A stretch of 50,801 nt of DNA from NCBI RefSeq assembly GCF_009687865.1, contig NZ_BLAE01000081.1:1-50801 (forward strand), written 5' to 3'. Below, in pieces: positions 9,824 to 27,620 of the stretch (position 1 is the stretch's first letter; the number at the start of each line of letters is the position of its first letter). The notes beneath the pieces are model-generated. The model had not been told where the DNA came from and ran no database searches. It saw only the letters and a program-made list of their open reading frames with translations. This DNA is from Acrocarpospora macrocephala. GTDB taxonomy: Bacteria > Actinomycetota > Actinomycetes > Streptosporangiales > Streptosporangiaceae. Made by a program: the position numbers and the translations under genes.

Positions 9824-11356
9824 TCAGCGGGCGGAGACGGTTCCGGCGCTGTTGATCATCATGAGCTTCAGCTGGCTACCGTCCAGGTACGTCTGCGCGG
9901 GCGTCAGGTACCCGTCGCTGGACGTGGCGGTGGACCGGTTGAACCTCTGCTGGAAGTGCGGGATGTAGCCGACCTCGGTGCGGAAGTTGGTCAGCGACGC
10001 CGTGCTCTCGTTCCAGTGGTACATGTTGGTCTGCCACTTCGGGTAGTAGTAGCCGGGCACGTCCGGCTCCCCGGCGTCGCGGGTCGGCGAGACGAGCCAG
10101 TCGTCCACCCCGTCCCCGTCGACGTCGGCGATGTCCCAGAGGAACAGGTCCTTGATGGCGTACCGATCGGTGGTGGCCCCGGGGTCCGAGATGTGCAGGT
10201 ACCAGCGCCCTCCGGTGTAGACGTTGTACGCGATCCGCGACGTGCCGCCGGTGCGCACGATGGGATTCGCCGGATACGACACCCGGTTCTCGTACTTGTT
10301 GCCGTCACTGTTGTCATGCGCGTACGAGTAGAACCGGTCATCGACGGTGTTCGAGCCGAGGTCGTAGACCGAGACGTGCCGCTCGATGCCACCCCACGGG
10401 TCGCGGGTCATGGTGCCGGAGAGCCGGTCCAGATAGAGGGAGTAGTTGCTGGTCCCGGCGACCAGCACCACCTTGCTGGAGTTGCCGGGGTCGACCGCGA
10501 CGACACCGTAGTTGCGCCCGCCGATGTCGGTGCGCCCACCGGTGAGGTAGGGCCGGTCGGCCACGAGCTGGCTCGCGCTCAACGGCCCGACCGCGTACTG
10601 CGCGACCCGGCCCGAGGTCCAGAACACCAGCCGTTGCTGCCCCGACACGTTGACGATGAGCCCGTTGGCCGCATGGGAGTTGGTGATGTACTTGGTGCCC
10701 GTCGGATACGTGTTGGCCAGGGCGTTGGTGTAGGTGGCGTCATACGACGACGTGGACGGGAAGTAGAGCGCCCCGTCGGTGCCGAACGAGCTGCCGTTGA
10801 AGCCGAAGAACCACGAGGTGCTCGCGTAGTACGGAGAAACCGCGATCTTGTTCGTGGGGCCCCACAGCACGCCGTTCTCGGTCCACTGATGGGTCGGATA
10901 GATCGTGCTGCCGAAGTTCCAGCAGATGTCCGTGAGCGGGGAGAGTGGCGTCTGCCGGGTTCCGGTCTGTCCGCTGTAGAAGTACAGCGTGGTGGTGACG
11001 ACCGGGGTGGTGCCACAGGTGGTGCCCGTGGACGCGGACACCACGACGAAGACGTCGGGCCAGCCGTCGGCGTCGTAGTCGAAGCCGCCGTAGGGTCCGT
11101 ACCCGGTGGTGCCGGCGGTCCAGAGCTGGGTGCCGGACTGGTCGACGGCGCGCAGGGTGCCGCCGGTGAGCTGGAAGCCGACGGCGCTGACGGTCGCGCT
11201 GCCGGTCACGGTGTAGACCGGCAGCACGACACCGCCGGAGAGGGTGATGACGTTGCCCACGGCGGGCGGATTCGCGGCTGCGGGCGCCACGCCGACCAGG
11301 CCGACAGCCGTGGTCATCAGCAGGCACATCGCTAATCGGGAGACGAGTCGGTTCAC
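9824..11356 (-). CDS. Secreted FG-GAP/VCBS-repeat protein
   Basis: 510 residues with a clear Sec signal peptide (NRLVSRLAMCLLMTT... ending APAAAN, about 29 residues). The mature part carries calcium-loop FG-GAP/VCBS motifs such as FDYDADGWPDVFVV and ADVDGDGVDDW, so a secreted beta-propeller is expected. The start is the GTG at 11356, with AAGGAG 5 nt upstream; a longer upstream frame would spoil the signal peptide. It lies 17 bp behind the Gfo/Idh gene and is the last gene of the ten-gene unit before a terminator. No catalytic motif was recognised. Glycan binding or a propeller-type lyase are possibilities, not conclusions. Confidence 0.85.
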   Translation of the reverse strand: MNRLVSRLAMCLLMTTAVGLVGVAPAAANPPAVGNVITLSGGVVLPVYTVTGSATVSAVGFQLTGGTLRAVDQSGTQLWTAGTTGYGPYGGFDYDADGWPDVFVVVSASTGTTCGTTPVVTTTLYFYSGQTGTRQTPLSPLTDICWNFGSTIYPTHQWTENGVLWGPTNKIAVSPYYASTSWFFGFNGSSFGTDGALYFPSTSSYDATYTNALANTYPTGTKYITNSHAANGLIVNVSGQQRLVFWTSGRVAQYAVGPLSASQLVADRPYLTGGRTDIGGRNYGVVAVDPGNSSKVVLVAGTSNYSLYLDRLSGTMTRDPWGGIERHVSVYDLGSNTVDDRFYSYAHDNSDGNKYENRVSYPANPIVRTGGTSRIAYNVYTGGRWYLHISDPGATTDRYAIKDLFLWDIADVDGDGVDDWLVSPTRDAGEPDVPGYYYPKWQTNMYHWNESTASLTNFRTEVGYIPHFQQRFNRSTATSSDGYLTPAQTYLDGSQLKLMMINSAGTVSAR

Positions 11357-11373
11357 ACGGACTCCTTGCTGGG

Positions 11374-12318
11374 TTATGGAACGGTCTCCAAGGCGTCCAG
11401 CACCCGCATGGCCGGCAGCACGTCTGCCACCGTGCAACGCGGGGCGCGGCCCTCGGCGACGGCGGCGAGGAAATCAGCGTCCTGTGCCTCGATCGCCGCG
11501 TCCTGGGTGGCCGCGACGCCGGGCGAGTCGACGATCACGCCGTCGGGCCCGTACAGGCGGCCGTCTCTGATGTGCAAGGTCTGGTCTTCGGCGATCAGGA
11601 GGTAGTCGCTGACCGGCTCGCGGGAGTGGTAGGACAGCGAGAGTGTGGCCAGGTCGCCGCCCGGGGTGGCCAGCACGGCGCCGACGTCCATCGGGCTGTC
11701 GCTGCCCGGCCAGGCCGGCCCGCACCGGCCGGACACGCTGACCTCGGGTGCGTCGAGCAGCCACAGCGCCGCGTCGACGAGATGCGCGCCATGGTGCCAG
11801 AGCACGCTGTCGGTCCAGTCCCGGGCCTTGCCGGTCCAGCCCACGTTGCTCTGCCGCAGTTGCAGCGACCGGGCCACGACGTGGCGTAGCCGCAACTCGC
11901 CGCGCTCGACCCGGGCCCGCACCTCCAGATGCGGCGCCCAGAACCGCAACGTGTGGCCCATCGCGACGGACCGTCCCGTCTCCGCGGCGGTACGCGCCAC
12001 CAGTTCGGCTTCGGCCAGCGACACCCCGGCCGGGATCTCGCACAGCACATCGCGCCCGGCCCGCAGCGCGGCGACGGTGAGCGAGGCGTGCACGGGGCTG
12101 GGCGCGGCGACCACGACCGCGTTCACCTCGTCATCGGCGAGCAGCGCCGTGGTGTCCCCATAGGCGCGTGGAATGTCGTGCTCGGCGGCGAACGCGGCGT
12201 TCTCCTCGGGCTTCGGCCCGGCCACCGCGACGATCCGGCCACCGGCCGCGCGGATCGCCCGAGCATGGCAGGCGCCGATCGCGCCCGGCCCGAGAATGCC
12301 GATGCCCGTAGCGTTCAT
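11374..12318 (-). CDS. Gfo/Idh/MocA-family NAD(P)-dependent oxidoreductase
   Basis: 314 residues. The N-terminal Rossmann domain shows the dinucleotide motif GILGPGAIGACHARAI (residues ~7-22), then VVAAPSPVHASL and the CEIPAGVSLAEAE block, where family members usually have EKP. The C-terminal domain carries WHHGAHLVDAALWLLD, with histidines at the usual catalytic place. The family oxidises sugars, inositols or related polyols. Its stop-start overlap with the amidohydrolase gene (ATGA, 12315-12318) and a GGAGGG ribosome site fix the start. With a lactonase-type amidohydrolase next door, oxidation of a sugar to a lactone is a reasonable inference. The substrate cannot be read from the sequence. 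Confidence 0.88.
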   Translation of the reverse strand: MNATGIGILGPGAIGACHARAIRAAGGRIVAVAGPKPEENAAFAAEHDIPRAYGDTTALLADDEVNAVVVAAPSPVHASLTVAALRAGRDVLCEIPAGVSLAEAELVARTAAETGRSVAMGHTLRFWAPHLEVRARVERGELRLRHVVARSLQLRQSNVGWTGKARDWTDSVLWHHGAHLVDAALWLLDAPEVSVSGRCGPAWPGSDSPMDVGAVLATPGGDLATLSLSYHSREPVSDYLLIAEDQTLHIRDGRLYGPDGVIVDSPGVAATQDAAIEAQDADFLAAVAEGRAPRCTVADVLPAMRVLDALETVP

Positions 12319-13094
12319 GGAGTCCCTCCGAAGATCGTGTCGGCGCTGCGGCCCAGCACCCGGTCCTGGTCCTCGTCGCTGAGGAACGGCATGTGGCCGG
12401 TGACATGGTCGACGGCCGCGGCATAGTCGGCGTCGGTGCCGCCCGCCCGGTTCCAGTCCCCGCTCCACATGAGACGGTCCGCCCCGAAAGCCGCCAGGGA
12501 CATCCGCAGGTACGGCTCCGCGTCCGGATAGGGGTACGGGGTGCCGGCGTTGAGGAAGAAGCCCGACCACGAGGTGGAGGTGTTCGGGCGCTCGGCCAGC
12601 CCGAGGAATCGCCGGAATCCGCGATACGGCGGGGGATCGTCGGCCAGCTTCAGCCAGCCGAGATGCTCGAGCCGGAAGTGCACGCCTGGGTGCCGGTCGA
12701 CGATATCCAGAAACGCGTCGTCGGTGACGTCGGCGAACGGCCCGGTGACGCTGGCGACCAGCCGATGCGTGTCCATCGCCCGCCACACGCCGGATGGCGT
12801 GCCGCCGGCCGGCAGCCGTACCCCCTTCAGCACGCCGCGCTCGCCGATCTCGTGGACGAGGCGCGGCGCGCGGGAATCCTGGGGGTCCACCAGAGCGACT
12901 CCGGCGAACAGGTCGGGGCGCTCGCGCACGCAGCGCTCGAGGTACTCGTTGTCGGGGTTCCCCAGATGCTGCACGAGGACGGCACGGGCGATCCCGTGCG
13001 TCTTCATGGCGTCGAGATAGTCGTCGATCGGGCGGTATTTGGTGAGTCCCACGTGGACGTGACAGTCGACGATCACGCGGTCAGTCCCCGGCAC
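12315..13094 (-). CDS. Amidohydrolase_2-family hydrolase (possible sugar lactonase)
   Basis: 259 residues. TIM-barrel metal hydrolase with the HxH motif in VDCHVHVG (residues ~10-17), the strand-end histidine in FRLEHLGW and the late aspartate in LMWSGDWN. The family includes L-rhamnono- and L-fucono-lactonases, 4-sulfomuconolactonase and decarboxylases. In this operon a lactonase step between the Gfo/Idh dehydrogenase and the sugar-acid dehydratase would fit. The GTG start at 13094 overlaps the preceding gene by 14 bp; a GTG six codons later (13076) is also possible. Operon membership is certain from overlaps on both sides. The exact reaction is inference. Confidence 0.85.
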   Translation of the reverse strand: MPGTDRVIVDCHVHVGLTKYRPIDDYLDAMKTHGIARAVLVQHLGNPDNEYLERCVRERPDLFAGVALVDPQDSRAPRLVHEIGERGVLKGVRLPAGGTPSGVWRAMDTHRLVASVTGPFADVTDDAFLDIVDRHPGVHFRLEHLGWLKLADDPPPYRGFRRFLGLAERPNTSTSWSGFFLNAGTPYPYPDAEPYLRMSLAAFGADRLMWSGDWNRAGGTDADYAAAVDHVTGHMPFLSDEDQDRVLGRSADTIFGGTP

Positions 13095-13827
13095 GGCCGC
13101 CTGCCAACCGCGCGCAGGCCGCCGTGAACTGCGCTGACGTGGCGGTGTATCCCACGTTGGACTCGATGTACCGGATCGCCAGCAGGTTGGCCAGCTCGCC
13201 CTCGCGCGTCTCCGGATACTCGAATGTCCGTACGCAGTCGCGCAGGACCACCACCCGGTAGCCCCGGTACATCGCCTCGGTGACCGTGTTGCCGAGGCAG
13301 ATCCGGCTGTCGAAGCCGACCACCACCAGGTCCCGGATGTCGCGCGCCCGCAGCGTGGAGTCCAGTGTGGTCTCGTAGAAGCCGCTGTACATCTGCTTGC
13401 GGATCAGCGGTTCGCCGTCACCCGGCGCGATCACCTTGGAGAAGGCCAGGATGTCGTTGGGTTCCCGCCACGCCTCCAGAACGTCCACGTCGCAGGTGCG
13501 CATGGAGAGGTTGCGCCACTCGGTGCGCTCCGTGAGGCCGGGCGAGAGATGGTTGGTGAGGTAGACGACCGGCAGACCGGCCTGCCGCGCCGCCTCCCGG
13601 GCCGGCACGATGTGCTCCCGGACGATCTCCTTCACGACGGGGTCGGGGGCGTAGATTCCGGTCAGGTCGGGATGCTCTTCCTCGTCGTCGAAGCCCTGGC
13701 CGTAGGCGTCCACGATGAGGAATCCGGTTCGCGCCGGGTCGAGTTCCAGCTCTTCCTCCGCGTGGCCGAGCGGGTTGTCGAACGACGGGTACATCCGGTA
13801 GTACCGGCCGGTCAGGGTCAGCGTCAT
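13081..13827 (-). CDS. Isochorismatase-family cysteine hydrolase
   Basis: 248 residues. The catalytic triad is visible: D40 in FLIVDAYG, K144 in LIRKQMYSGF and C177 in DSRICLGNTVTEA. The family covers nicotinamidase, N-carbamoylsarcosine amidohydrolase, ureidoacrylate amidohydrolase (RutB) and isochorismatase. A conserved cysteine nucleophile favours an amidase-type reaction over true isochorismatase. An N-terminal extension of about 30 residues (YYRMYPSFDNPLG) precedes the core. The start overlaps the upstream gene by 4 bp (13824-13827). It could cleave an amide or carbamoyl group from the imported substrate; that role is inferred from context only. Confidence 0.88.
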   Translation of the reverse strand: MTLTLTGRYYRMYPSFDNPLGHAEEELELDPARTGFLIVDAYGQGFDDEEEHPDLTGIYAPDPVVKEIVREHIVPAREAARQAGLPVVYLTNHLSPGLTERTEWRNLSMRTCDVDVLEAWREPNDILAFSKVIAPGDGEPLIRKQMYSGFYETTLDSTLRARDIRDLVVVGFDSRICLGNTVTEAMYRGYRVVVLRDCVRTFEYPETREGELANLLAIRYIESNVGYTATSAQFTAACARLAGGRAGD

Positions 13828-14696
13828 CGTTGTCCTTCACTGGGGAGGGCCGGCTGGGTCTGGGAGATGAGGGCCTGCGTTCCCCGATCTCCGCCGAGCG
13901 CGTCGATTACCGCCTGGCACAGCTCGCGGACCAGGCTGGTGCCGGGCAGCCGGCGGGCGTCGCCGACCTCGTCGAGGGCCAGGCCGAGGTCCTTGGCCAG
14001 GTGCGCCACCTTGAATCCGGGCTCCAGGTCGCCGTTGCTCAGCCGGGGCCAGGCGAAGTCGAGCAGCGGCGAACCCGCCACCCCGACCCGTACCGACTCG
14101 TGCACCCGTGCCGGATCGAGCCCGGCCGCCTCGGCGACGGCGTAGGCCTCGCAGATGCCGAGCGTCACGTTCGCCACGAGCGCCTGGTTGACCAGCTTCG
14201 CGGCCTGCCCGGCGCCGGCGGGGCCGTGGTGCACGACGGTCGAGCCGAGCACCTCGAAGACCGGCCGGACCCGCTCGAACGCGTCGGCGGCACCGCCCAC
14301 GAAGATGGAGAGCGCGCCGCTCTGCGCCCCGGCGGGCCCGCCGCTGACCGGAGCGTCCAGAACCGAACCTCCGGTGATGTCGGCCAGCCGCCGGGCCAGC
14401 GCGGGCGACGACGTCGACATGTCCACCGCGATGGTGCCGGGCGAGGCGTTCGCGAGGATGCCGTCAGGACCCAGGTAGGCCGCCTCGACGTCGGCGGGAA
14501 ACGGCAGCATGGTGATGACCACGTCGCGATCCCGGGCCGCCGCCGCGATCGAGCCGGCCCAGCCCGCGCCCAGGGCCAGCAGCGGTTCCGCCCTGGCCGG
14601 GGTCCGGTTGTGCACGGTCACCTGGTGCCCGGCCGCGACCAGCCGCGCCACCATCGGCGCGCCCATCAGGCCCGTGCCGATCCAGCCGATCCTCAT
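13824..14696 (-). CDS. 3-hydroxyisobutyrate dehydrogenase-family NAD(P) oxidoreductase
   Basis: 290 residues, beta-hydroxyacid dehydrogenase family. The Rossmann motif IGWIGTGLMGAPMV starts at residue 3. The substrate-binding DAPVSGGPAGAQSG follows at ~125, and the catalytic lysine lies in GQAAKLVNQ. Known relatives act on 3-hydroxyisobutyrate, tartronate semialdehyde, threonate or glucuronate. Here it might reduce or oxidise the aldehyde fragment left by the aldolase; this is inference. The ATG at 14696 overlaps the stop of the upstream ATPase gene by 4 bp, and its own stop overlaps the isochorismatase gene. A longer frame read upstream is just the shadow of the ATPase gene. Confidence 0.9.
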   Translation of the reverse strand: MRIGWIGTGLMGAPMVARLVAAGHQVTVHNRTPARAEPLLALGAGWAGSIAAAARDRDVVITMLPFPADVEAAYLGPDGILANASPGTIAVDMSTSSPALARRLADITGGSVLDAPVSGGPAGAQSGALSIFVGGAADAFERVRPVFEVLGSTVVHHGPAGAGQAAKLVNQALVANVTLGICEAYAVAEAAGLDPARVHESVRVGVAGSPLLDFAWPRLSNGDLEPGFKVAHLAKDLGLALDEVGDARRLPGTSLVRELCQAVIDALGGDRGTQALISQTQPALPSEGQR

Positions 14697-15727
14697 GCGT
14701 GCCCTCCCGAAGGCTGCCCGGCCAGATTCGCCGCGAGCGGGGGCGACGACTCGGCGAAATGGCAGGCGGCCATGCCGCCGCCGGCCGCCGGGCGCAGTAG
14801 CGGGCGCTCCTCGCGGCAGCGCGCCGGCTGGCCCATTTCCCGCCACAGGGGGCATCTGGGCGCGAAATGACAGCCTGCCGTGACCGGCCCGGAGTCCGAG
14901 ATCTCGCCCTTGATCACCGTACGGGTGAAGCCGCCACCCGGCCGGAACACCGGTATCGAACCGATCAACGCCCGCGTGTACGGGTGCACCGGGTTCTCCA
15001 GCAGCGTGCGCCGTGGACCGATCTCCACCAGCCGGCCGAGGTACAACACCGCGATCCGCTCGCACAGGAAGTAGACAGCGCGCAGATCGTGGCTGATGAA
15101 CAGCATGGCCAGGCCGAGTTCCCGGCGGAGTTCGGCGAACAGGTTGAGCACCTGCGCCTGCACCGAGACATCCAGCCCGGAGACCGGCTCGTCGGCCACC
15201 ACCAGAGCGGGCTGAACGGAGAGCGCCCGGGCGATGCCAAGGCGCTGCCGCTGCCCGCCGCTGAACTGCTGCGGATACCGGTCCAGCATCGCGGGCGTGA
15301 GACCGACCTGGCGCAGAAGCGCCCCCATCCGCTCGTCCAGGTCCGCTCCGGCCGCGAGCCGATGAATCTGGTACGGATCAGAAAGCACCGAACGAACTGT
15401 GCGCCGCGGATTGAAGGCGTTCTGCGTGTTCTGGAAGATCATCTGTACGTCCCGGCGGAACTCCAGCAATCGCCGCCCCGACAGTCCCCGCAGATCCTGC
15501 CCGCGCAACTCGATCTGACCAGCGGTCGGTTCCTCCAGCCGCACGATGAGCCGCCCGATCGTCGTCTTGCCCGAACCGCTCTCCCCCACCAGGCCCAGCG
15601 TCTCGCCGGGAAACACGTCGAAGGACACGTCGTCGACCGCCCGTACCGTCGACCGCCCGGGCCCGAAACCGCGCTCCCGGAAGTCCTTCACCAGACCGCG
15701 CACCGACAGCAGCGGCTCCCCGGTCAC
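14693..15727 (-). CDS. ABC transporter ATPase, oligopeptide/nickel type (DppF/OppF-like)
   Basis: 344 residues, cytoplasmic ATPase of the importer. Walker A is GESGSGKTT, the signature is [15 protein letters not shown] and Walker B is [12 protein letters not shown]. The C-terminal oligo_HPY extension has the [10 protein letters not shown] cysteine motif seen in Dpp/Opp ATPases. The preferred start is the GTG at 15727, giving the same 4-bp overlap (GTGA) used elsewhere in this operon; a start nine codons upstream is possible. It pairs with the adjacent DppD-like ATPase to make the heterodimeric motor. Confidence 0.92.
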
Positions 15728-16722
15728 CGGACCACCGCCTCGGTGAAGTGGCACCGGCTGCGCCGCTCAGACTCAAGGTCAGCGAGGTCCGGGGCGAGCG
15801 AGGTGCACTTCTCCGGGTTGCCCAGCCGCTCGCGCAGCCAGCACCGTTCGGCGAAGCGGCACCCGGCCGGCCAGGCGCGCGGATCGGGCGGCGCGCCCGG
15901 AATCGTGGTCAGCTGCTCGGGCGGATCGCCGCCCAGCGGCGGTATGGCGTCGAGCAAGGCCCGGGTGTACGGGTGGGCCGGAGCGGTGCACACCTCGACC
16001 ACGGGACCCGACTCCACGATCTGGCCGGCGTACATGACCAGGACCCGGTCGCAGATCTCCGCCACCGTGGTCATGTCGTGGGTGACGAACAGGATGCCGG
16101 TGCCCGACTGCTCGCGTACATCGAGCAGCAGGCGGAGGATCTGGGCCTGGATGGTGACGTCGAGCGCGGTCGTCGGCTCGTCGGCGATCAGCAGGTCCGG
16201 CCCGAGCTGGACCCCCATCGCCACGGCCACCCGTTGCTGCATCCCGCCGGACAGTTCGTGCGGATACCGCCGGACCTGGTGCTCAGGGCGCGGCAACCCG
16301 ACCCGCCGGAGGATGTCCAGGATCCGGCCCGGCCGCTCGGCCCGCGGCAGGTCGGGCAGGTGGGCGGCGAGCCCCTCGCCGACCTGGGCGCCGATCCGGG
16401 TCACCGGGTTCAGCGCGGCGCCCGCGTCAGACGGGATGAGCGCCATCTGGCGGCCCCGCAACTGGGCCAGCTCCCGGAGGCTGAGCGTGCCCAGGTCGAT
16501 GTCGCGCAGCCGCACCGAACCGGCCACGATCCGGCCCGGCCGGGGGACGAGCCCGAGCAACGCCAGCATGGTCACGCTCTTGCCGCTGCCGGATTCGCCG
16601 ACCATGCCGACGATCTCACCGGCGCGCACGTCGAAACCGACCCCGTCCACGGCCCGCGCCACGCTCCCGCGCAGCGAGAACTCCACGGCGAGATCCCGTA
16701 CTTGGAGCACGACAGTGGCCAT
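15724..16722 (-). CDS. ABC transporter ATPase, oligopeptide/nickel type (DppD/OppD-like)
   Basis: 332 residues. Walker A is [12 protein letters not shown], the signature is [14 protein letters not shown] and Walker B is [12 protein letters not shown]. The C-terminal oligo_HPY region has [12 protein letters not shown]. In related transporters the C-terminal extension can hold an Fe-S cluster, and the cysteines fit that. The ATG at 16722 shares one base with the TGA of the upstream permease gene. It is one of two ATPases of the five-gene importer. The sequence does not define the substrate. Confidence 0.92.
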
Positions 16723-17582
16723 CAGCCGGTCCTCTTCGCGTCGAGCCGATCGCGGAGCGAATCGGAGAGCAGGTTCATGGCGAAGACCGCGAGCACGATG
16801 GGGACGCCCGCGACCAGCGCCAACTCGGGATGCGCCAGGATGAACTCCCGGCTCTCCGCGAGGCGCGAGCCCCACGAGGCCTGCGGCGGCTGCACGCCCA
16901 GCCCGAGGAAGCCCAGCGCGGCCTCATCGAGGATGGCGAAGCCGAGCAGCACCGTCGTCTGGACCAGCACCAGCGGGACCAGCCCGGTCAGGATGTCGGT
17001 CCTGATCACCCGCAGCCGGGACGCGCCGAGCACCCGGGCCGCGTCGACGTAGGGCCGGGACCGGATGCCCACCACCGCAGCCCTGATCAGCCGGGTGTAG
17101 AACGGCCAGTACGACAAGCCGAGCGCCAGGATGGTCGTGGTCAGCGAAGGACCGAAGAGCCCGACCACGCCGATCGCCACCAGCAGCGACGGGATCGCGA
17201 AGAACAGGTCGACCACCCGGGTGACCACGAGATCCACCCAGCCACCGAGGAACCCGGTCAGCACGCCCAGCGGAATGGCGATGGCCGTGGCCAGGGCCAC
17301 CGCGCCAAGCGCGATCAACGCGGTCGCCCGCGCGCCGTGCGCGATCCGGCTCGCCACGTCCCGCCCGAGCTCGTCGGTGCCCAGCCAGTGCGCCGCGCTC
17401 GGACCGGCGAACCGGTTGCCGACGTCGATGGCGTACGGATCCTTGCCGATCAGCCACGGGCCGATCACGATGGTGAGCAACACCAGCAGTCCCAGGATCG
17501 CGCCGACCACCGTGAGCAGCGGCGTCCGCCGCCGGCCCACCGCCCGGGGCTCGGTGACGAGAACAGCGGCCGGCGCGGTCAT
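16722..17582 (-). CDS. ABC transporter permease, DppC/OppC-like
   Basis: 286 residues. A cytosolic N-terminal tail is followed by TM1 (LLTVVGAILGLLVLLTIVIG), the periplasmic motif HWLGTDELGRDV typical of DppC/OppC, and the remaining helices. The EAA loop is seen around AARVLGASRLRVIRTDIL. About six membrane segments are expected. It follows the DppB-like gene after 34 bp and shares one base with the next ATPase gene. It forms the pore with the DppB-like subunit. Confidence 0.92.
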   Translation of the reverse strand: MTAPAAVLVTEPRAVGRRRTPLLTVVGAILGLLVLLTIVIGPWLIGKDPYAIDVGNRFAGPSAAHWLGTDELGRDVASRIAHGARATALIALGAVALATAIAIPLGVLTGFLGGWVDLVVTRVVDLFFAIPSLLVAIGVVGLFGPSLTTTILALGLSYWPFYTRLIRAAVVGIRSRPYVDAARVLGASRLRVIRTDILTGLVPLVLVQTTVLLGFAILDEAALGFLGLGVQPPQASWGSRLAESREFILAHPELALVAGVPIVLAVFAMNLLSDSLRDRLDAKRTG

Positions 17583-20249: not shown

Positions 20250-20283
20250 CCCGCCTCCTTAGGGTTCCACGTAACTAGCGCAG

Positions 20284-20313: not shown

Positions 20314-20320
20314 GACCCCT

Positions 20321-20349
20321 GACTTAGGTCATAAGTGTTACATTGACCT
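20321..20349. promoter_or_regulatory. Candidate GntR operator A (between binding-protein and aldolase genes)
   Basis: Contains TGACTTAGG (20320-20328) and GTTACATTG (20337-20345), plus the inverted repeat AGGTCA (20326-20331) / TGACCT (20344-20349) with a 12-bp spacer. The two 9-mers recur, with TGACCTAGG in place of TGACTTAGG, before the dehydratase gene (24126-24156). They probably mark a shared regulator, most simply the GntR protein of this island. Confidence 0.5.
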
Positions 20350-20370
20350 CACACGCACGAGAGGACGGTC

Positions 20371-21270
20371 ATGCAACCCACCACCATCTGGGGCGGGATC
20401 TTCCCCGCCGCCCTGACAATGTTCGACGCGCACGGCCGGCTCGACGAGGACGCCAGTGCCGCCCACGTGGACTGGTTGATCGGTCAGGGCGCGCACGGCG
20501 TGGTCGTCGCCGGGACCAGCGGCGAGTTCATCTCCCTGTCCGGCCGGGAACGGCGCCGGCTCTTCGAGGTCACCGTGAAGGCCGCGGCCGGCCGGGTCCC
20601 GGTCATCGCCGGCACCGGCGCGTTCAGCACCACGGAGACGGTCGAGCTGACCCAGGGCGCCGCCGAGGCCGGTGCCTCCGGTGCGATCGTGATCCTGCCG
20701 TACTACCAGCGCCCGCACCGCGACGAGGTGCTGGCGCACTTCCGGGCGGTCGGGCGGGCCGCCGAGATCCCGATCATGGTCTACAACAATCCGGCCAACT
20801 CGGGGACCGAGCCGCTGACCGCCGCCGACCTCGCCACCCTGTACGTGGAGGGCGCCGCGCAGGCGGTGAAGAGCACGTTCCCGACCGTGCACCAGGTCCA
20901 CGAGGCAAGAGCAGCCACCGACGAGGGCTTCCGCGTCTTCTACGGCAGCTTCATGGCTCCGCTTGAGGGGATGGCCGGTGGCGCGCACGGCTGGGTGAGC
21001 GGGATCCTCAACGTGGCGACCCCGGACGCGGTCGCCCTGTGGGAGGCCGTGCAGCGCGGTGATCTGCCCGCCGCCAGGGCCGCCTGGGCGCGCATCCTGC
21101 CGATCAAGTATCTCTACACGCGGCAGCCCCTCGGGCCGGTCAGCGATCTGGCGATCTACCGGGAGATGCTGGCGATGCGGGGCCTGCCGGGCGGGCACAG
21201 CCGCGCGCCGCTGCTCCCGCTGACCTCGGACCAGCGCGAGACCCTGGCCCGCCTGCTCGCCGAGAGCTGA
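20371..21270 (+). CDS. DHDPS/N-acetylneuraminate lyase-family aldolase or dehydratase
   Basis: 299 residues, class I Schiff-base TIM barrel. The pyruvate/carboxylate loop GTSGEF is at ~50. The catalytic tyrosine Y138 lies in VYNNPANSG, and the Schiff-base lysine K167 in AVKSTFPTV. True DHDPS, KDG aldolase, KDG dehydratase and NAL all share this plan. Next to a galactonate-dehydratase-like enzyme, cleavage or dehydration of a 2-keto-3-deoxy sugar acid is the most likely job; lysine biosynthesis is unlikely in this context. It is divergent from the ABC operon, with the shared operator in between, and ends at a bidirectional terminator. Confidence 0.88.
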   Translation: MQPTTIWGGIFPAALTMFDAHGRLDEDASAAHVDWLIGQGAHGVVVAGTSGEFISLSGRERRRLFEVTVKAAAGRVPVIAGTGAFSTTETVELTQGAAEAGASGAIVILPYYQRPHRDEVLAHFRAVGRAAEIPIMVYNNPANSGTEPLTAADLATLYVEGAAQAVKSTFPTVHQVHEARAATDEGFRVFYGSFMAPLEGMAGGAHGWVSGILNVATPDAVALWEAVQRGDLPAARAAWARILPIKYLYTRQPLGPVSDLAIYREMLAMRGLPGGHSRAPLLPLTSDQRETLARLLAES

Positions 21271-21278
21271 GCTGGAAC

Positions 21279-21306
21279 CGGGCTGCCCCGCACGCGGGGC
21301 AGCCCG
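21279..21306. terminator. Bidirectional terminator hairpin
   Basis: Perfect 13-bp stem (CGGGCTGCCCCGC and its complement) with a 2-nt gap, between the convergent stops of the aldolase gene (21270) and the D-aminoacylase gene (21311). Confidence 0.75.
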
Positions 21307-21310
21307 CGAG

Positions 21311-22924
21311 TCAGCAGGTGGCGCCGGGTCCGCGCAGGGCGCGGCCCGGAGTCGCCCCGGTGAGCACGCCGTCGTCGAGCACCAGCCGGCCGTTCACCGC
21401 CACATAGGACATACCCAGCGCGAGTTCCCGAGGGCGTTCGAAGCTGGCGGGCGCGTGCACCGTGGCCGGGTCGAAGACCACCAGGTCCGCCTTCATCCCG
21501 TCGCGCACCAGCCCGCGATCCGAGAGGCCGAGCCGCTGCGCCGGGAACGAGGTCATCTTGCGGATGGCCTCGGGCAGCGAGAGCAGCCGCTCCTCGCGGA
21601 CGAAGTCGCCCAGCACCCGGGCGAAACATCCGTACGCCCGGGGGCTCGGGTACGCCCCGATCAGCACCGCGTCGCTGGCGATCATCCCGAGCGGATGGCA
21701 GACGAACTTCCACAGGGTCATCGCCTGCGGGCTGGGCCTGGTGAACGTGGCGCCCGGGTTGGCCGCGGCCAGCACGCACAGCGTCTCGGTGAGGTCACCG
21801 CCCCACTCGGTGACCACCTCGGCGAGATTCCAGCCCTCGAACCGCGCGTGGGCCGGATCGTTCAGGTTCCCCAGCCGTACGTCGGCGAAGGGCCGGCTCA
21901 CCACGTACTGCCGGACCGCCGCGCTGTCCTGCAACTCCGCGCGCAACCGGTCGCGTAGCGCCGGATCGGCGAGCCGTTCCTGGAGCGGGTCCGGTCCATC
22001 CGCCTGCAGCCAGCCGGGCAGCAGCCGGACCAGCCGGGTGCCGCCCCACTCGTACGGATACGTATCGAACGTGACGTCGAGCCCGTCCGTACGCGCGCCC
22101 TCCACGAGGTCGAGCATGCGCTGGGCGCCGCCGGTGTACGTGGCCCGCATCGAGCGGGAGAAATGGGTTAACTGCACAGGAATGTCGGCCCGCCGGCCGA
22201 TCTCCAGCGCCTCCAGGAACGGGTCGAGGTAGGTGTCTCCCAACGCGTACCGCACATGGGTGTGGTAGATCCCGCCGAACCTCGCGGCCTCCTTCGCCAG
22301 CTCGACCAGTTCGTCGGTGTCCGCGTGGCTGCCCGGCGGATAGTCCAGGCCGGTGGACAAGCCGAGGGCGCCGTCGCGCATCGCGTCCCGGACGATCCCG
22401 CGCATCCGGTCCAGCGCGACCTTACCGGCCGGCGCGTCCGACCAGCCGAGCGCGCTGATCCTGGGCGCGGTGTTGCCCACGAAGACCCCGACGTTGACCG
22501 AGGCGCCGCCGTCATAGCGGGCCAGCAGGTCGGCTACGGACCGCCAGGAGTAGTCGATCTCCGGGTGGCCGGCGATGCCGGCGTTCATCCGGACGAATCG
22601 CAGCAGGTCGGCTGGGTCGTCGAAGGGCGCGTAGGACAGGCCGTCCACTCCCAGGATCTCGGTGGTCACCCCCTGCCGTACCTTCATCTCCAGCGTCGGG
22701 TCGACCATCAGCACCAGATCCGAGTGCGAGTGCGCGTCGATGAAGCCCGGGGCGACGACGAGGCCGCGGGCGTCGATCCGGCGCTCGGCGGGCACCTGGG
22801 ACACGTCGCCGCGCAGCACGTACGCCCGGTCGCCGCGGACCCCGACGGCGGCGTGGAACCCGGGGTTTCCCGACCCGTCCACGACAAGCCCGGAGTGGAT
22901 GATCAGCTGGTAGGGCTCGCTCAT
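21311..22924 (-). CDS. N-acyl-D-amino-acid deacylase-like amidohydrolase
   Basis: 537 residues, amidohydrolase superfamily, D-aminoacylase group. The metal motif GFIDAHSHSD is near residue 65. The later histidines lie in IYHTHVRYA and PVQLTHFSRS, and the catalytic aspartate is probably in MIASDAVLIG. The position that in classical D-aminoacylases is the zinc-ligand cysteine (GNCG) reads GVDGLSYAP here, so this is a variant subgroup. The start overlaps the dehydratase stop by 4 bp, so the two enzymes are translated together. It could remove an N-acyl or amide group from the imported compound. True substrates are unknown. Confidence 0.85.
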   Translation of the reverse strand: MSEPYQLIIHSGLVVDGSGNPGFHAAVGVRGDRAYVLRGDVSQVPAERRIDARGLVVAPGFIDAHSHSDLVLMVDPTLEMKVRQGVTTEILGVDGLSYAPFDDPADLLRFVRMNAGIAGHPEIDYSWRSVADLLARYDGGASVNVGVFVGNTAPRISALGWSDAPAGKVALDRMRGIVRDAMRDGALGLSTGLDYPPGSHADTDELVELAKEAARFGGIYHTHVRYALGDTYLDPFLEALEIGRRADIPVQLTHFSRSMRATYTGGAQRMLDLVEGARTDGLDVTFDTYPYEWGGTRLVRLLPGWLQADGPDPLQERLADPALRDRLRAELQDSAAVRQYVVSRPFADVRLGNLNDPAHARFEGWNLAEVVTEWGGDLTETLCVLAAANPGATFTRPSPQAMTLWKFVCHPLGMIASDAVLIGAYPSPRAYGCFARVLGDFVREERLLSLPEAIRKMTSFPAQRLGLSDRGLVRDGMKADLVVFDPATVHAPASFERPRELALGMSYVAVNGRLVLDDGVLTGATPGRALRGPGATC

Positions 22925-24096
22925 CGGGTGCCCCCTCGGTCGAGCTCGGGTTTGAACGGGTGCTTGACGATCTCCTCGACCCGCAGCCGCGGCCCGAGCC
23001 CGGGCGCGTCCGTGACCACCCACTCGCCGTTCTCCACCCGCGGCGGATCCTCGGTATACCGCTCCCAGTACTGCATCTGGGCCGGTGTGATCATCGACTC
23101 GGAGATCAGCAGATTCGGCAGGGTGGCCGCGAGCTGCCAGGTCGCCGCGCTCTGCAGCGGCCCGAACGGGTTATGGAACGCGATCGAAAGACCGTGCACC
23201 TCCGCGCAGGTGGCGATCTTGCGAGCCGCCGTGATCCCGCCGCAGATCCCGACATCCGGCTGCACCACCGCCACCGCGTGCGCGCCGATGAACGGGGCCG
23301 AGGCGAAGTGGTTGCCCCATCGTTCGCCGGCCGCGATCGGGGTGGTCGAACGGCGGCTCACCTCGAGCATCCAGTCCACCCGATCCGCCGGCACCGGCTC
23401 CTCGATGAAGGTCAGGTCATAGGGCGCGAGCGCTTCGCAGAGCCGGATCGCGTTGGCCACGTTCAGCCGGCCGTGGCAGTCGAGCATCAGATGGACATCC
23501 GGGCCGACCGCCTCCCTGGCCGCCGCGAAATACTCCGCGATCACCTTGAACGTCCAGGTGGGCAGTAACTCGGTCTCGGTCTGCCGGGCCGGGATCAGCG
23601 CGGGCCGATCGTGCTTGACGCTGGTCACCTTCTCGTAGAAGCCGGGCAGCGTGGTCTTCACCGCCGTGAAGCCCCGGTCCACCCGGTCCCGGATCTCGGC
23701 CGCGAGCTCCTCCGGCGAGCCCCCGGCCTTCGCGTGCGTGTAGACCGGCACCCGATCCCGGAACTTCCCCCCGAGCAACCGGTGGACCGGGACGCCCAGC
23801 GCCCGGCCGTTGAGGTCCCAGAGCGCCTGGTCGATCGCGCTGATCCCGATGGTGAGCAGGGTGCCGCCGAGGAACGCGTCCCGGTACATGCGCTCGGCGT
23901 GCTGCTCGATCCGGGTGGGGTCACGCCCGATCAGGTATTCGGACAGCTCCTCGATCAGGGCGGCGACCGACCGCGTGCGCCTGCGCATCGCCACCTCGGC
24001 CTCCCCCACCACACCTTCATCGGTCTCGATCCGGACGTAGATGGCGTTGTAGAACCCGAAATCGGCGATCCACTGGCGGACACCGGTGACTCGCAT
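22921..24096 (-). CDS. Enolase-superfamily (mandelate racemase group) sugar-acid dehydratase, galactonate-dehydratase type
   Basis: 391 residues. Metal ligands can be placed: D206 (LMLDCHGRLN), E232 (FIEEPVP) and E258 (AAGERWG). Their 26/26-residue spacing is identical to E. coli galactonate dehydratase DgoD (183/209/235). H208 and H308 (AFHNPFGP) occupy the positions of DgoD H185 and H285, the latter 50 residues after the third ligand. Dehydration of an aldonate to a 2-keto-3-deoxy acid is therefore strongly suggested, though the sugar is unknown. The start is the ATG at 24096 with GGGAGG 4 nt upstream; an in-frame start four codons earlier lacks one. The promoter region carries the shared operator motifs. 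Confidence 0.9.
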   Translation of the reverse strand: MRVTGVRQWIADFGFYNAIYVRIETDEGVVGEAEVAMRRRTRSVAALIEELSEYLIGRDPTRIEQHAERMYRDAFLGGTLLTIGISAIDQALWDLNGRALGVPVHRLLGGKFRDRVPVYTHAKAGGSPEELAAEIRDRVDRGFTAVKTTLPGFYEKVTSVKHDRPALIPARQTETELLPTWTFKVIAEYFAAAREAVGPDVHLMLDCHGRLNVANAIRLCEALAPYDLTFIEEPVPADRVDWMLEVSRRSTTPIAAGERWGNHFASAPFIGAHAVAVVQPDVGICGGITAARKIATCAEVHGLSIAFHNPFGPLQSAATWQLAATLPNLLISESMITPAQMQYWERYTEDPPRVENGEWVVTDAPGLGPRLRVEEIVKHPFKPELDRGGTR

Positions 24097-24125
24097 GACA
24101 CCTCCCACAGCTCAGCTCACTGCGA

Positions 24126-24156
24126 CAATGTAACCCAGGTTAGGCCCTAGGTCATA
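24126..24156. promoter_or_regulatory. Candidate GntR operator B (between dehydratase and gntR genes)
   Basis: On the reverse strand this reads TGACCTAGG, an 11-bp spacer, then GTTACATTG. It matches operator A (TGACTTAGG, 8-bp spacer, GTTACATTG). In both places GTTACATTG lies 25-38 bp before the ATG of the enzyme gene. It lies in the intergenic region of the divergent regulator gene, so autoregulation is plausible. Confidence 0.5.
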
Positions 24157-24252
24157 CCTCCTGTGTCCTGGGTGGCACGGAAGGCGCTACGCTGTCCCAC
24201 AGGTGGCCGACTTGGCCGGTCGGCAGCGGCCGATTCTGGAAGGGTGACCGGC

Positions 24253-24999
24253 GTGACCATGGGGGAGTCAGCACCACAGGGGCAGTGGCGGCACACCCGG
24301 GTCCCGCTCGGGAAGCAGATCGCCGACCAGATCCGAGACCTCATCAAGACCGAGGGGTTGATCGACGGCGACCCCCTGCCCTCCGAGTCCGACCTGGCCA
24401 ACCGGTATGGCGTGAGCCAGCGGGTGGTCCGCGACGCCCTTCGCACGCTGACCAACCAGGGCGTCGTGGAGACCCGCCAGGGCAAGCGGGCCACGGTCAG
24501 CGGGCTGCGCCCGGTCGCGGTGGAGGACTACTTCCGGCTCGCCGTGGACGCCCACGAGGAAGCCATCGACGAGCTCCTCGAACTGCGGCTGGCCATCGAG
24601 ACCAAGGCCGCCGGGCTGGCCGCCACCCGGGCGACGGCCGTCGAGATCGCCGAACTCCGCACGGTCATGGCCCAGCTCAACGACGCGGAGGACGATCTGA
24701 CCCGCCGGGTCGAGTTGGACATGGCATTCCACAGCGCGATCGCCCGCGCCTCGCGCAACAGGTTCTTCCAGTCGATCCTGGACGCGCTGGCCGAAGCGCT
24801 CACCGCCGAGCGGCATCGCGGCGGTCAGCTCACCGAGGCGGCCGGGCTGACCCACGCCGAGACCAACACCCAGCACCAGGCGCTGCTGCTGGCCCTGGAA
24901 GCACGTGACGCCCAGCTCGCCGAGCAGTGCATGCGGGCGATACTGGAGCGCGCCCGGCACTACTTCCGGGACCTGGACAGCACAGCGCCGGGTGCCTAA
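24253..24999 (+). CDS. GntR-family transcriptional regulator, FadR/FCD subgroup
   Basis: 248 residues. The N-terminal winged helix shows LGKQIADQIRDLIKTE then LPSESDLANRYGVSQRVVRDAL, followed by GVVETRQGKRATVSG. The C-terminal FCD domain (~95-235) has LELRLAIETKAAGLAA, DMAFHSAIARAS and HAETNTQHQALL, whose aspartate and histidines are the usual metal/ligand-binding set. The chosen start is the GTG at 24253, 9 nt after GGAAGG; the ATG at 24259 is also possible. As the only regulator in the island it most likely senses a pathway acid and controls operators A and B. The effector is unknown. Confidence 0.9.
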   Translation: MTMGESAPQGQWRHTRVPLGKQIADQIRDLIKTEGLIDGDPLPSESDLANRYGVSQRVVRDALRTLTNQGVVETRQGKRATVSGLRPVAVEDYFRLAVDAHEEAIDELLELRLAIETKAAGLAATRATAVEIAELRTVMAQLNDAEDDLTRRVELDMAFHSAIARASRNRFFQSILDALAEALTAERHRGGQLTEAAGLTHAETNTQHQALLLALEARDAQLAEQCMRAILERARHYFRDLDSTAPGA

Positions 25000-25043
25000 C
25001 CTCGATTCTGAACTCTGTCCTAAGACAGACTTTGGGGGTCGAG

Positions 25044-27620
25044 GTGTCAGAGTGGTGGACCGCGCGTGGCGATGGCCGCAACCTCGGGCGTACAGACCTT
25101 CCAGGCGGATACCGCCACGCGCCGGTGGAGGTCTGGCAGCTCGACACCGGCGGGGACGTGCGATTCGCCCGTACTGTGCGGGTCCGGGGCGCCGAAGCCT
25201 TGCTGGTCCAGGCAGGCGGCACGCTCGCCGCGACCGGCTGGGACGGCAGGCCGATCTGGCGCGCGGACACGCTCGGCGTCACCCGGGTGCTGCACGCCGG
25301 GCGGTTCGGCGCGCCCGACGCGTGGCAGGCGCTGATCACCACCGACGAGCGCACCGTGGCTCTGGTCGACCTGGACACCGGTACGCCGGTGTGGACCTGG
25401 AGCACGGAGGCGCGGGCCAACCTCGCCGGGCCCGGCGCGTCCAAGGTGTTCGGCTCCCCCGGCGCGCTGCGCTGGGTGTGCTTCCCGACCTACTCGACCC
25501 GGGGCCGGTGTGTCGATTTCTCCGATCCTGGCCGGCCGTCCGTGGTGTGGGACGTGGACTACGGGGACGCGTACGACGCCGGGTTCGGGCCCACCGTGGT
25601 AGTCGCGGACGTGACCGGGGGCGGCCAGGCCGAGGTGCTGGTGTCCAGTCGCTGCGGCACGGGTTATGCCAGTGCCGACACCGAGGCGCTGGTGCTCGGG
25701 CGCGAGGACGGCCGGCTTTACCAGGCGGTGATCGACGCCGGGACCGGTGCGGTGCGGCTCGTCACGCGCTATCGGCCCGATCCCGGCGACTACCCGTGCG
25801 CCCGCCCGTACGGGCTCCTGCAAGCCGTGTCGCCGGACGGCGGCCCACGACTCGGCGCCGTCCTGGTGAGCTGCCAGGTCGAGGAGTACCTGGCGGTGAC
25901 CGGGCACTCCCCCGCGGGACTCCATCGCGCCTGGGGTCACTTCGTGGAGAAGGACTGGCCCGAGGACCATCGTGAGCTGCGCCCGCAGATCACCTCGGTC
26001 GCGGACGTTCGCGGGACTGGGCGGCCCGATCTCGTCGTCGGCCTCTGGCAGGACGGTCGGTGGCGCACGCTCGTTCTCGATCTCTCCGCCGGTCTGTCCG
26101 GCGGTGACCTGGCGGCCGGGGCGTCGTCCGTGTTGCCGGGACGGTACTTCTGGGGATGCCATGACCTCGATGGCGATGGGCGTCCCGAACTCGTGGTGAG
26201 CCGCGAATCCGAGCGCCGGCCAGCGGGCCGTACCGTGCTGGAGATCGTGGACGGCACGACCCTGGAGACGCTGGCCACGCTGGCCGATGCCGCGCTGCTC
26301 ACCTCGAGCGACTCGGCGCTTCCCGAACACGTCAACTTCCACGCGGACCGGCGGAGCGCGGTCGAGGTGCGGGACGGTTCAGGTTCGCCCGGACTGCTGG
26401 TCCGCCGTGACGATGGCATCCATGTGTGGAACGGGCGGACGTCGCGGCGGCTGGCCGGGCCGGAGTACACCCGGGCCGACTGGTACGGCGGGGAGCTCAT
26501 CCTTTCCACCGCGGACGGCCGGGTCAGCCGGTGCGGTCCCGATCTGTCCCCGGTCGGCGACCCCGTACCGGCCTCGGGGCGGTTCTGCCAGCCTTTGGTG
26601 TGGACGCGGGACCACGGCCCCGAGATCGTCACCGACCTGGCCGGCGGGCAGGTCATCGGCGGGACACCAGGGCCCGGAGGATTGGACCGTGAGTGGCGGG
26701 TGCCAGGCGCGTTGCCGGCGCTGCACCGCGACGCCGGGGGTACGCACCGGCTAGTCGTGTCCACTGTGGACGGTGACCGCCCAGCGGCGACGGTGCACCG
26801 TGAACCGGGTGGCCAGGACGCGACGGCGATCACGATCGCGCTGGCCGCGCCGCCGGCTCTGGCGCTCGTCCCGTTCGGCCTGACCTTCCGGCTGCTCGCC
26901 AACCTGCACACCGGCGTGCACACCGCGGCGCTGGCCCTGTACGACGAGCGCGGTGCCCCACTTTGGGCCGATCCTCTGCACGGCGGGCATCCGGCCCGGC
27001 CCGGCGTGGTGCCGCTGGGCGGGGACACGTGGCTGATCGCGGCCGACGACCATGGCCGGCTGCGCCTGTACGACGAAACCGGGAAGGTCCGCGCGGAAAA
27101 CGACTGGACCGCCGCGTACACCACCCCGATCGCGGTGCCGGGCACCGCCGCGCTGCTGCGCGCGGACGGGATCCATGGCCTGGAACTGATCGGCCTCGAC
27201 GGCGAGACGGTGTGGCGGGTCAACACCGAACTGTGGCGCTACTTCCCGGGCCGCTCCGCGCTGGCCCGCGCGCCGGAGCCGGGACAGTGGCTGCTCGGAG
27301 CGGTGTCGCGCGACGGCCGGTTCGCGGCGTTTGACGGGCTCACCGGGGAGGTGCGCTGGCAGCTCGACACCGGACCGGCCATCCCGGAGCGCGCGGTCGC
27401 CGCCGGTGACCTGGACGGCGACGGGCGCGACGAGTTCCTGGTCGGCACCCGGGCCGGCCGGCTGCTGTGCCTGCGCGATGGCGAAATCGTCTGGGAACAC
27501 CAGTTTCCCGCCGCGGTCACCAACCCGGTGCTGGCCGATGTGAACGGTGACGGCCGGGTGGAGATCCTGGTGGCCACCGCGGACGGAATGCTCCGGCTGC
27601 TCGGCACGGCCAATGAGTGA
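25044..27620 (+). CDS. Large FG-GAP/PQQ-like beta-propeller protein without signal peptide
   Basis: 858 residues. Repeated blades carry two kinds of motif: PQQ-like ones (VDLDTGTPVWTWS, FDGLTGEVRWQLDTG, DGETVWRVN) and calcium-type FG-GAP ones (HDLDGDGRPELVV, AAGDLDGDGRDEFLVGT, ADVNGDGRVEILVAT). It starts at the GTG at 25044 (SEWWTARGDGRNLGR) after a G-rich ribosome site. No Sec or Tat signal is visible, which is odd for this fold. It follows gntR after 44 bp on the same strand and ends at a strong terminator. It is probably part of the island, alongside the secreted FG-GAP protein at the far end. No catalytic function was recognised. Confidence 0.8.
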   Translation: MSEWWTARGDGRNLGRTDLPGGYRHAPVEVWQLDTGGDVRFARTVRVRGAEALLVQAGGTLAATGWDGRPIWRADTLGVTRVLHAGRFGAPDAWQALITTDERTVALVDLDTGTPVWTWSTEARANLAGPGASKVFGSPGALRWVCFPTYSTRGRCVDFSDPGRPSVVWDVDYGDAYDAGFGPTVVVADVTGGGQAEVLVSSRCGTGYASADTEALVLGREDGRLYQAVIDAGTGAVRLVTRYRPDPGDYPCARPYGLLQAVSPDGGPRLGAVLVSCQVEEYLAVTGHSPAGLHRAWGHFVEKDWPEDHRELRPQITSVADVRGTGRPDLVVGLWQDGRWRTLVLDLSAGLSGGDLAAGASSVLPGRYFWGCHDLDGDGRPELVVSRESERRPAGRTVLEIVDGTTLETLATLADAALLTSSDSALPEHVNFHADRRSAVEVRDGSGSPGLLVRRDDGIHVWNGRTSRRLAGPEYTRADWYGGELILSTADGRVSRCGPDLSPVGDPVPASGRFCQPLVWTRDHGPEIVTDLAGGQVIGGTPGPGGLDREWRVPGALPALHRDAGGTHRLVVSTVDGDRPAATVHREPGGQDATAITIALAAPPALALVPFGLTFRLLANLHTGVHTAALALYDERGAPLWADPLHGGHPARPGVVPLGGDTWLIAADDHGRLRLYDETGKVRAENDWTAAYTTPIAVPGTAALLRADGIHGLELIGLDGETVWRVNTELWRYFPGRSALARAPEPGQWLLGAVSRDGRFAAFDGLTGEVRWQLDTGPAIPERAVAAGDLDGDGRDEFLVGTRAGRLLCLRDGEIVWEHQFPAAVTNPVLADVNGDGRVEILVATADGMLRLLGTANE

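Follow-up and report, generated by a model that had tools for sequence, protein, structure and literature searches.

A mobile catabolic island in Acrocarpospora macrocephala, tentatively assigned to an N-acylated acidic sugar

A stretch of 50,801 nucleotides from the actinomycete Acrocarpospora macrocephala (contig NZ_BLAE01000081.1, positions 1-50,801, here called the window; genome 12.1 Mb) contains an island at 9824-27620, which is a self-contained, horizontally moving catabolic unit. Its 15 genes lie between sppA (8068-9762) and a GH18/CBM2 gene (27700-29307). Our tentative reading, to which we give a probability of about 0.4, is that the island encodes a route for an N-acylated acidic sugar; we infer its substrates, the order of its steps and the role of the isochorismatase-like protein.

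Results

The island moves as a unit, because it is syntenic in five other genomes and its site is empty in both sister species examined. The gene order, from the gene of an 858-aa protein to that of a secreted protein, is the same in A. corrugata, A. pleiomorpha, two Dactylosporangium and Rhizohabitans, that is in three genera, and among these five copies the flanking genes tested (sppA, GH18 and glgB) adjoin the island only in A. pleiomorpha. The original prediction, which was made from the DNA letters without database searches, had proposed a coherent catabolic island with its own importer and a search for the gene set in other genomes. The synteny bears out the island, and the search did find the genes together elsewhere. 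A query with the dehydratase against 84,980 species genomes, a search that detects no more than close relatives, found 11 loci: five island copies, five loci with a second arrangement, and one locus in a Chloroflexota metagenome-assembled genome (MAG).

Two sister species (G374 and G401) have no dehydratase match at E 1e-70, and in them the sppA and GH18 matches are 123 bp (L126) and 91 bp (L128) apart. Homology of the window to this empty site ends near 9780 and resumes near 27620 (L126) or 27706 (L128). Hairpins are present at both island edges and, by eye, also at the empty site. The boundaries first proposed coincide almost exactly with those of an insertion of about 17.8 kb, with the GH18 gene outside. 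This chitinase was considered as a member of the island and rejected, since it adjoins sppA in the two species with the empty site.

Gene content, conservation, motifs, the clade of the acylase and the counts of its neighbours were observed directly. The families named in the original prediction were all recovered, and in the positions proposed, by family searches of the window proteins. What strengthens the lactone step is the identity of the nearest solved relatives of its two enzymes, namely PmdC and a putative 2-pyrone-4,6-dicarboxylate hydrolase. PmdC is the top solved relative of the Gfo/Idh oxidoreductase over its full length (E 3.8e-44, with the runner-up at 5.1e-17). The Gfo/Idh family usually carries an EKP motif with its lysine; all 12 proteins compared have EIP, as has PmdC itself. 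These 12 span both arrangements and the Chloroflexota protein, and include a Phytoactinopolyspora match that overruns a stop codon by a few residues near its end. The PmdC positions H177, H178, H181, D172, R157 and R168 are kept in every one of the 12 (signature RxWxDxxxWHHxxHxxD; RSWTDHLLWHHxxHxxDxF). According to the partial text of PMC11489326, mutation of H177, H178 or H181 lowers PmdC activity by 83-98%, and docking places one carboxylate at R157 and R168 and the second at R126 and T240. The single carboxylate site kept in the island protein would in our interpretation fit a uronate hemiacetal better than 4-carboxy-2-hydroxymuconate semialdehyde (CHMS). A lactone-forming role, as first proposed, is thus plausible for a PmdC-like protein with its catalytic His kept, and only the type had to be corrected since the usual EKP lysine is absent. 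An inositol- or glucose-type dehydrogenase was rejected on account of that replaced lysine and of the far better match to PmdC. For the Amidohydro_2 protein, the sole solved relative at E 0.001 is 2ffi, a putative 2-pyrone-4,6-dicarboxylic acid hydrolase (E 1.6e-8), and the NCBIfam fuconolactonase model gives 21.4 of 400 bits.

The mandelate racemase/muconate-lactonizing enzyme (MR/MLE) protein is 35% identical to E. coli DgoD over 317 residues and scores 275.4 bits against the galactonate dehydratase model PRK14017, below the cut-off of 311. The motifs DxHGR, IEEP, GER and HxPxGP, which we take to be the metal ligands and the His acid/base of DgoD, are kept in seven of seven aligned dehydratases, DgoD included. 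A sample of 295 genomes of the phylum holds one other match to it (41% identical, E 1e-60). The aldolase has the GTSGEF, YNNP and VKST motifs of the dihydrodipicolinate synthase/N-acetylneuraminate lyase (DHDPS/NAL) family, and its top model is dapA, below cut-off. With their motifs kept, the lactonase, the DgoD-type dehydratase and the DHDPS/NAL aldolase of the original prediction are all plausible. The enzyme described there as 3-hydroxyisobutyrate-dehydrogenase-like is plausible as a reductase, but tartronate-semialdehyde reductase is the top model in all four proteins scanned, always below cut-off (240.9 bits against TIGR01505 in the window, where 340.75 would be needed), and the window protein is 39% identical to E. 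coli GarR. Sulfolactaldehyde and 3-hydroxyisobutyrate enzymes were rejected as candidates, their models giving 134 and 181 versus 241 bits.

The isochorismatase-like protein keeps D, K and C motifs, presumably its catalytic triad, in six of the six proteins compared, and no other copy was found in a phylum sample of 245 genomes at E 1e-25, with few candidates per genome scored. The importer is an Opp/Dpp-type ATP-binding cassette (ABC) system of an SBP_bac_5 protein, two permeases and two ATPases (14693-20249). Calling a substrate from the binding protein was tried and rejected, as most of its NCBIfam matches are to nickel, opine, glutathione and peptide models and none reaches its cut-off.

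By sequence the acylase is D-aminoacylase-like (1m7j, E 2.5e-70; PpOngB, 9kb1, E 4e-50). Its phmmer alignments to D-aminoacylases (the five best, OngB absent) break off across the insertion domain, where PpOngB has the substrate-selecting residues Gln298 and Ser292. A carboxylate-binding Lys is conserved in OngB-, AfDam- and BbDam-like sequences (PMC12017989, partial text). In a tree of 37 relatives, 18 proteins with a GxDG motif and without this Lys form one group (100/98), and four haloarchaeal proteins with GxDG and the Lys form the next. The 295-genome sample gave 27 acylase matches outside the window at E 1e-70, and the surroundings of 26 were read (the second match of G177 was left out) over up to 20 kb, or less on some shorter contigs, with neighbour queries from L079 and L082 at E 1e-10. 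Eleven of these loci encode an acylase of the GxDG/no-Lys type; at the other 15 the acylase is of another type, with Cys at 13 and Glu at 2. A D-ser_dehydrat-type gene adjoins ten of the eleven and a DgaE-like gene (192.8 of 385.3 bits) the remaining one; a 2-keto-3-deoxygluconate (KDG) kinase-like gene (183.5 of 400 bits) is found near nine and a GntP permease near seven. Among the 15 other loci, D-ser_dehydrat genes occur at two, and DgaE-like, KDG-kinase-like and GntP genes at none. These neighbours therefore tie the acylase clade to amino sugar acids, and would indirectly support an N-acylated amino sugar acid as the substrate.

The ong cluster of Pseudoalteromonas encodes a pathway for oxidised chitin, that is for the C1-acid of N-acetylglucosamine, GlcNAc1A (PMC9537276 and PMC12017989, both partial texts). 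At nine loci (L077-L080 and L083-L087; eight from one genus with genomes of 7-10 Mb, one from another family) a D-ser_dehydrat deaminase, a GxDG acylase, a KDG-kinase-like protein and an IclR regulator are encoded together, at seven of them with GntP, and this cluster is a possible actinobacterial counterpart of the ong pathway. Searches of plasmids returned 10 and 15 records, none above 41% identity; on one, a Haladaptatus plasmid (L104), a Dpp-like ABC transporter stands beside an M81 peptidase gene and two GxDG-with-Lys D-aminoacylases.

Were the acylase to release a 2-amino sugar acid, some enzyme would have to take off its nitrogen. No pyridoxal phosphate (PLP) enzyme is found among the 15 island genes. 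An OngC-like homologue lies elsewhere in the genome in four of seven cases (the window genome, both other Acrocarpospora and Rhizohabitans); at E 1e-15 neither of the two Dactylosporangium genomes nor the Chloroflexota MAG gave a match. DgaE-family matches occur in all seven, every one below cut-off (best 103 of 385 bits). The dehydratase itself could be the nitrogen-removing enzyme, if abstraction of the alpha-proton and loss of the beta-hydroxyl gave an enamine that decays to keto acid and ammonia. Within the enolase superfamily, LhpJ is reported to dehydrate cis-3-hydroxy-L-proline, an alpha-amino-beta-hydroxy acid, to a cyclic imine (PMC5144071, partial text), and chitinase clusters of Natrarchaeobius were in 2025 shown with a gene labelled galactonate dehydratase, to which the partial text of PMC12343721 assigns no role in deamination.

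The second arrangement is found in Phytoactinopolyspora, Occultella and three Nonomuraea, which have relatives of the dehydratase (74-77% identical), aldolase, regulator, reductase, Amidohydro_2 and Gfo/Idh genes, together called the core. The acylase, isochorismatase-like, binding-protein, DppB and propeller-type genes have no match at E 1e-10 in the stretches read (L018-L022, L044-L048). All five loci have an extra MR/MLE gene, as well as beta-helix, pectate-lyase-like or DUF4838 proteins nearby, and four have a sugar-epimerase-like gene. A creatininase-family gene adjoins Gfo/Idh in the three Nonomuraea (L046-L048) and an M81 gene is next but one to it in Occultella (L019); neither was found in the Phytoactinopolyspora stretch. 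Both families include amide hydrolases, and the creatininase family also covers 3-dehydro-scyllo-inosose hydrolase (an NF041098 match). It may be as if different hydrolases serve one step. In the Chloroflexota MAG the genes for aldolase, dehydratase, acylase and a second dehydratase are consecutive.

Two FG-GAP/propeller-type genes, one at each end of the island (9824-11356 and 25044-27620), went unmentioned in the text of the original prediction and travel with the island. The secreted 510-aa protein is 85-96% identical in four other islands; in A. corrugata (L039:17449-17912) its gene is present as fragments only, and the remaining 14 island genes match at nearly full length. Its structure model has a mean confidence score (pLDDT) of 34. 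The model of the 858-aa protein, with pLDDT 53, is all-beta at low confidence, and of its 1647 Foldseek matches the best 50 are to unrelated proteins, for the most part large assemblies that contain propellers, at a query TM-score of at most 0.25. In the phylum sample, with few candidates per genome scored, no other copy was found of the 858-aa protein (295 other genomes, E 1e-15) or of the secreted protein (295 genomes, E 1e-10). A homologue of the 858-aa protein on another contig of the Chloroflexota MAG (L049:10110-14648; 36% identical by tblastn, 37% in alignment A1, which excluded the Rhizohabitans copy) lies beside GntR, MR/MLE and Gfo/Idh genes and ties the propeller-type protein to such pathways outside the island.

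The coordinates are collected in Table 1. On the minus strand a run of ten genes leads from the SBP_bac_5 gene through two permeases, two ATPases, the beta-hydroxyacid dehydrogenase, the isochorismatase-like, Amidohydro_2 and Gfo/Idh proteins to the secreted protein; seven of its nine gaps are between -14 and +17 bp and the other two 34 and 86 bp. The dehydratase and acylase genes are a minus-strand pair overlapping by 4 bases. The plus strand carries the DHDPS-family gene and the GntR/FCD regulator, divergent from this pair, followed by the gene of the 858-aa protein. A promoter scan gave no match.

Table 1. The island of A. macrocephala and its features, in window coordinates
Feature	Position	Strand	Basis
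Island, absent at this site in two sister species	9781..27619	.	sppA/GH18 spacing and homology breakpoints
GC-rich hairpin, left edge, terminator-like by eye	9789..9822	.	inverted repeat of 16 nt, 94% complementary
510-aa protein, weak FG-GAP match, signal-like N terminus by eye	9824..11356	-	family search; relatives
Gfo/Idh oxidoreductase, PmdC type, proposed lactol-to-lactone dehydrogenase	11374..12318	-	family search, solved relatives, alignment
Amidohydro_2 protein, proposed lactonase	12315..13094	-	family search, solved relative, motifs
Isochorismatase-like cysteine hydrolase, possible amidase	13081..13827	-	family search, motifs
Beta-hydroxyacid dehydrogenase, top model tartronate-semialdehyde reductase	13824..14696	-	family and NCBIfam models
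ABC ATPase, OppF/DppF type	14693..15727	-	family search
ABC ATPase, OppD/DppD type	15724..16722	-	family search
ABC permease, DppC type	16722..17582	-	family search
ABC permease, DppB type	17617..18561	-	family search
Extracellular solute-binding protein, SBP_bac_5	18648..20249	-	family and NCBIfam search
DHDPS/NAL-family protein, proposed 2-keto-3-deoxy acid aldolase	20371..21270	+	family search, motifs
D-aminoacylase-fold amidohydrolase, 'GxDG, no Lys' clade, proposed N-acyl amino sugar acid deacylase	21311..22924	-	alignments, tree, neighbours
Enolase-superfamily (MR/MLE) dehydratase, DgoD type	22921..24096	-	family search, alignment with DgoD
GntR/FCD transcriptional regulator	24163..24999	+	family search
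858-aa protein, PQQ and FG-GAP repeats, all-beta model (low confidence)	25044..27620	+	open frame from 24927
Perfect 17-nt hairpin, right edge, terminator-like by eye	27619..27652	.	inverted-repeat search

Genes of the glgP/glgE/treS/mak type (window 1-8029) and glgB (30247-32418) flank the island together with sppA and GH18, and in L126 and L128 sppA and GH18 occupy the same glg-flanked place without the island. The open frame 33147-33794 repeats part of the N-terminal region of glgB, as if a fragment of that gene had been duplicated, and two neighbouring, similar-looking hydrophobic proteins with no assigned function are encoded at 32579-33544 and 33868-34908.

Discussion

In the route that we propose, the Opp/Dpp-type importer would bring the substrate in, and the PmdC-type Gfo/Idh enzyme would oxidise a cyclic hemiacetal, probably with one carboxylate, to a lactone that the Amidohydro_2 protein would open. 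The GxDG-clade amidohydrolase would strip the N-acyl group from a 2-amino sugar acid, and the DgoD-type enzyme would abstract the alpha-proton and eliminate the beta-hydroxyl, so that the amino acid passes through an enamine or imine to a 2-keto-3-deoxy acid and ammonia, a step that would stand in for the PLP deaminase of the ong route. The DHDPS-family aldolase would then split the product into pyruvate and a C3 aldehyde (tartronate semialdehyde from a uronate, otherwise glyceraldehyde), to be reduced by the GarR-like enzyme, and the isochorismatase-like hydrolase would perhaps act on a second amide. The fullest version of this scheme is unlikely in our judgement. It holds that the route is an undescribed, non-phosphorylated one for N-acylated, possibly amidated hexosaminuronic or hexosaminic acids, with the DgoD-type dehydratase replacing PLP enzymes, and that GxDG acylases mark a wider set of actinobacterial amino-sugar-acid pathways that has gone unrecognised, including the ong-like cluster in which deaminase, acylase and KDG kinase genes are joined by one for a gluconate-type permease.

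Several observations weigh against the proposed route. In the window and six close relatives the acylase has GVDG in the place of the GNCG of AfDam, the Cys of which we take to be a metal ligand, in keeping with the Cys/His/His passage on PpOngB, and HFS replaces HHK, so that the carboxylate Lys (Lys254 of PpOngB) is missing as well. As a sequence family the D-aminoacylase likeness noted in the original prediction stands, but these two residues of characterised D-aminoacylases do not, and with both of them failing, membership of the OngB group was rejected. Eight of the 11 GxDG/no-Lys loci belong to one genus, and in the window's own acylase group the stretches read at all seven loci contain no gene for a KDG-kinase-like, D-ser_dehydrat or DgaE-like protein or for GntP; the early hint of an N-acyl or amide group is indirectly favoured by the neighbours of other clade members but not by those of the window's own group. 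LhpJ belongs to the muconate-lactonizing subclass and not to that of DgoD, and the window genome holds an unlinked D-ser_dehydrat homologue. The second carboxylate site of PmdC, R126 and T240, is Leu and Asp in the window protein, and the Arg-carboxylate contacts derive from a docked model. There is no kinase among the 15 island genes, and no enzyme tested reaches an equivalog cut-off. DgoD likeness points to an aldonate, but the Arg pair and the GarR-like reductase point to a uronate or aldarate, and we have not reconciled the two.

The core is also present without the acylase and isochorismatase-like genes in the stretches read from the five genomes with the second arrangement. Its setting there, near beta-helix, pectate-lyase-like or DUF4838 proteins, and the likeness of the dehydratase and reductase to E. 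coli DgoD and GarR, argue for a plain non-phosphorylated route of aldose/aldonate or uronate/aldarate breakdown, with no nitrogen chemistry, where the acylase and the isochorismatase-like protein merely trim a substituent. We regard this as quite possible, even if the acylase and dehydratase genes overlap in the island and are paired again in the Chloroflexota MAG, and the acylase clade is tied to deaminase-type genes elsewhere. The Opp/Dpp importer and the D-aminoacylase fold could instead be the centre of an island that degrades N-acyl-D-amino acids or D-amino-acid peptides, for instance from peptidoglycan. Three of five plasmid loci are in line with this, with acylase relatives beside Dpp-type and M81 genes (L104), Dpp, GH3 and MurR genes (L105) or a dipeptide epimerase (L106); the other two have no such neighbours, the island genes include no deaminase, racemase or peptidase, the acylase does not have the Cys and Lys of D-aminoacylases, and the remaining enzymes are sugar-acid-like, which makes this explanation improbable. 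Least probable of all is a role in completing the breakdown of an aromatic ring-cleavage product, with the Gfo/Idh and Amidohydro_2 pair working as in protocatechuate 4,5-cleavage. It is suggested by the solved relatives of this pair and by the only NCBIfam match of the Occultella Amidohydro_2 protein (4-sulfomuconolactone hydrolase, 31.6 of 500 bits), but the island genes include no ring-cleavage dioxygenase, one of the two carboxylate sites of PmdC is lost, and the MR/MLE protein has the motifs of DgoD.

If the N-acylated acidic sugar is the true substrate, actinomycetes would possess a separate acylase clade for compounds of this kind, and in some cases a metal enzyme would take the place of the PLP deaminase. 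Lytic polysaccharide monooxygenases (LPMOs) acting on chitin give rise to oxidised and acidic amino sugars, and bacterial polysaccharides are a source of them too. The window genome has three AA10 LPMO genes elsewhere, so C1-oxidised chitin fragments could be available, although no link from these genes to the island was found. Since the island is compact and mobile and its site is empty in sister species, gain-of-function growth tests should be straightforward.

Comparison with known systems

We found no description of the island's gene set in the open-licence literature on Streptomyces and GlcNAc1A, N-acetylglucosaminic acid, enolase-superfamily glucosaminate enzymes or hexosaminuronate catabolism. 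The ong cluster, which the partial text of PMC9537276 places in Gammaproteobacteria and one Betaproteobacterium, resembles the island in that a deacylase of the D-aminoacylase fold feeds a 2-keto-3-deoxy acid route, with direct deacylation and without phosphorylation. It differs in having the PLP deaminase OngC, KdgK, the GH20 enzyme OngA and RidA, none of which is among the island genes, in an importer of the SSS and not the Opp/Dpp type, and in the two OngB residues that the island acylase does not have, and the island adds an enolase-superfamily dehydratase.

Another set of relatives is the D-glucarate/galactarate route (GarL, GarR and GarK) and the oxidative uronate routes, where oxidation, lactone opening, dehydration, aldol cleavage and a GarR-like reductase recur. 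GarL is an HpaI-family aldolase, which the DHDPS-family aldolase of the island does not match, and the island further departs from the glucarate/galactarate route in its PmdC-type Gfo/Idh protein, its DgoD-type dehydratase, the absence of a kinase, and the extra acylase and isochorismatase-like protein. With the DgoD galactonate route of E. coli it shares the type of dehydratase and a pyruvate-forming aldolase family, but it has neither a 2-keto-3-deoxygalactonate kinase nor a phospho-aldolase, and its dehydratase stays below the cut-off of the DgoD model. PmdC/LigC and 2-pyrone-4,6-dicarboxylate lactonase of protocatechuate 4,5-cleavage share with the island the lactone-forming Gfo/Idh signature, here beside Amidohydro_2, in surroundings of the sugar-acid type without ring-cleavage genes and with the second carboxylate site lost. 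Each kind of enzyme in the island is known, and it is the combination that is new.

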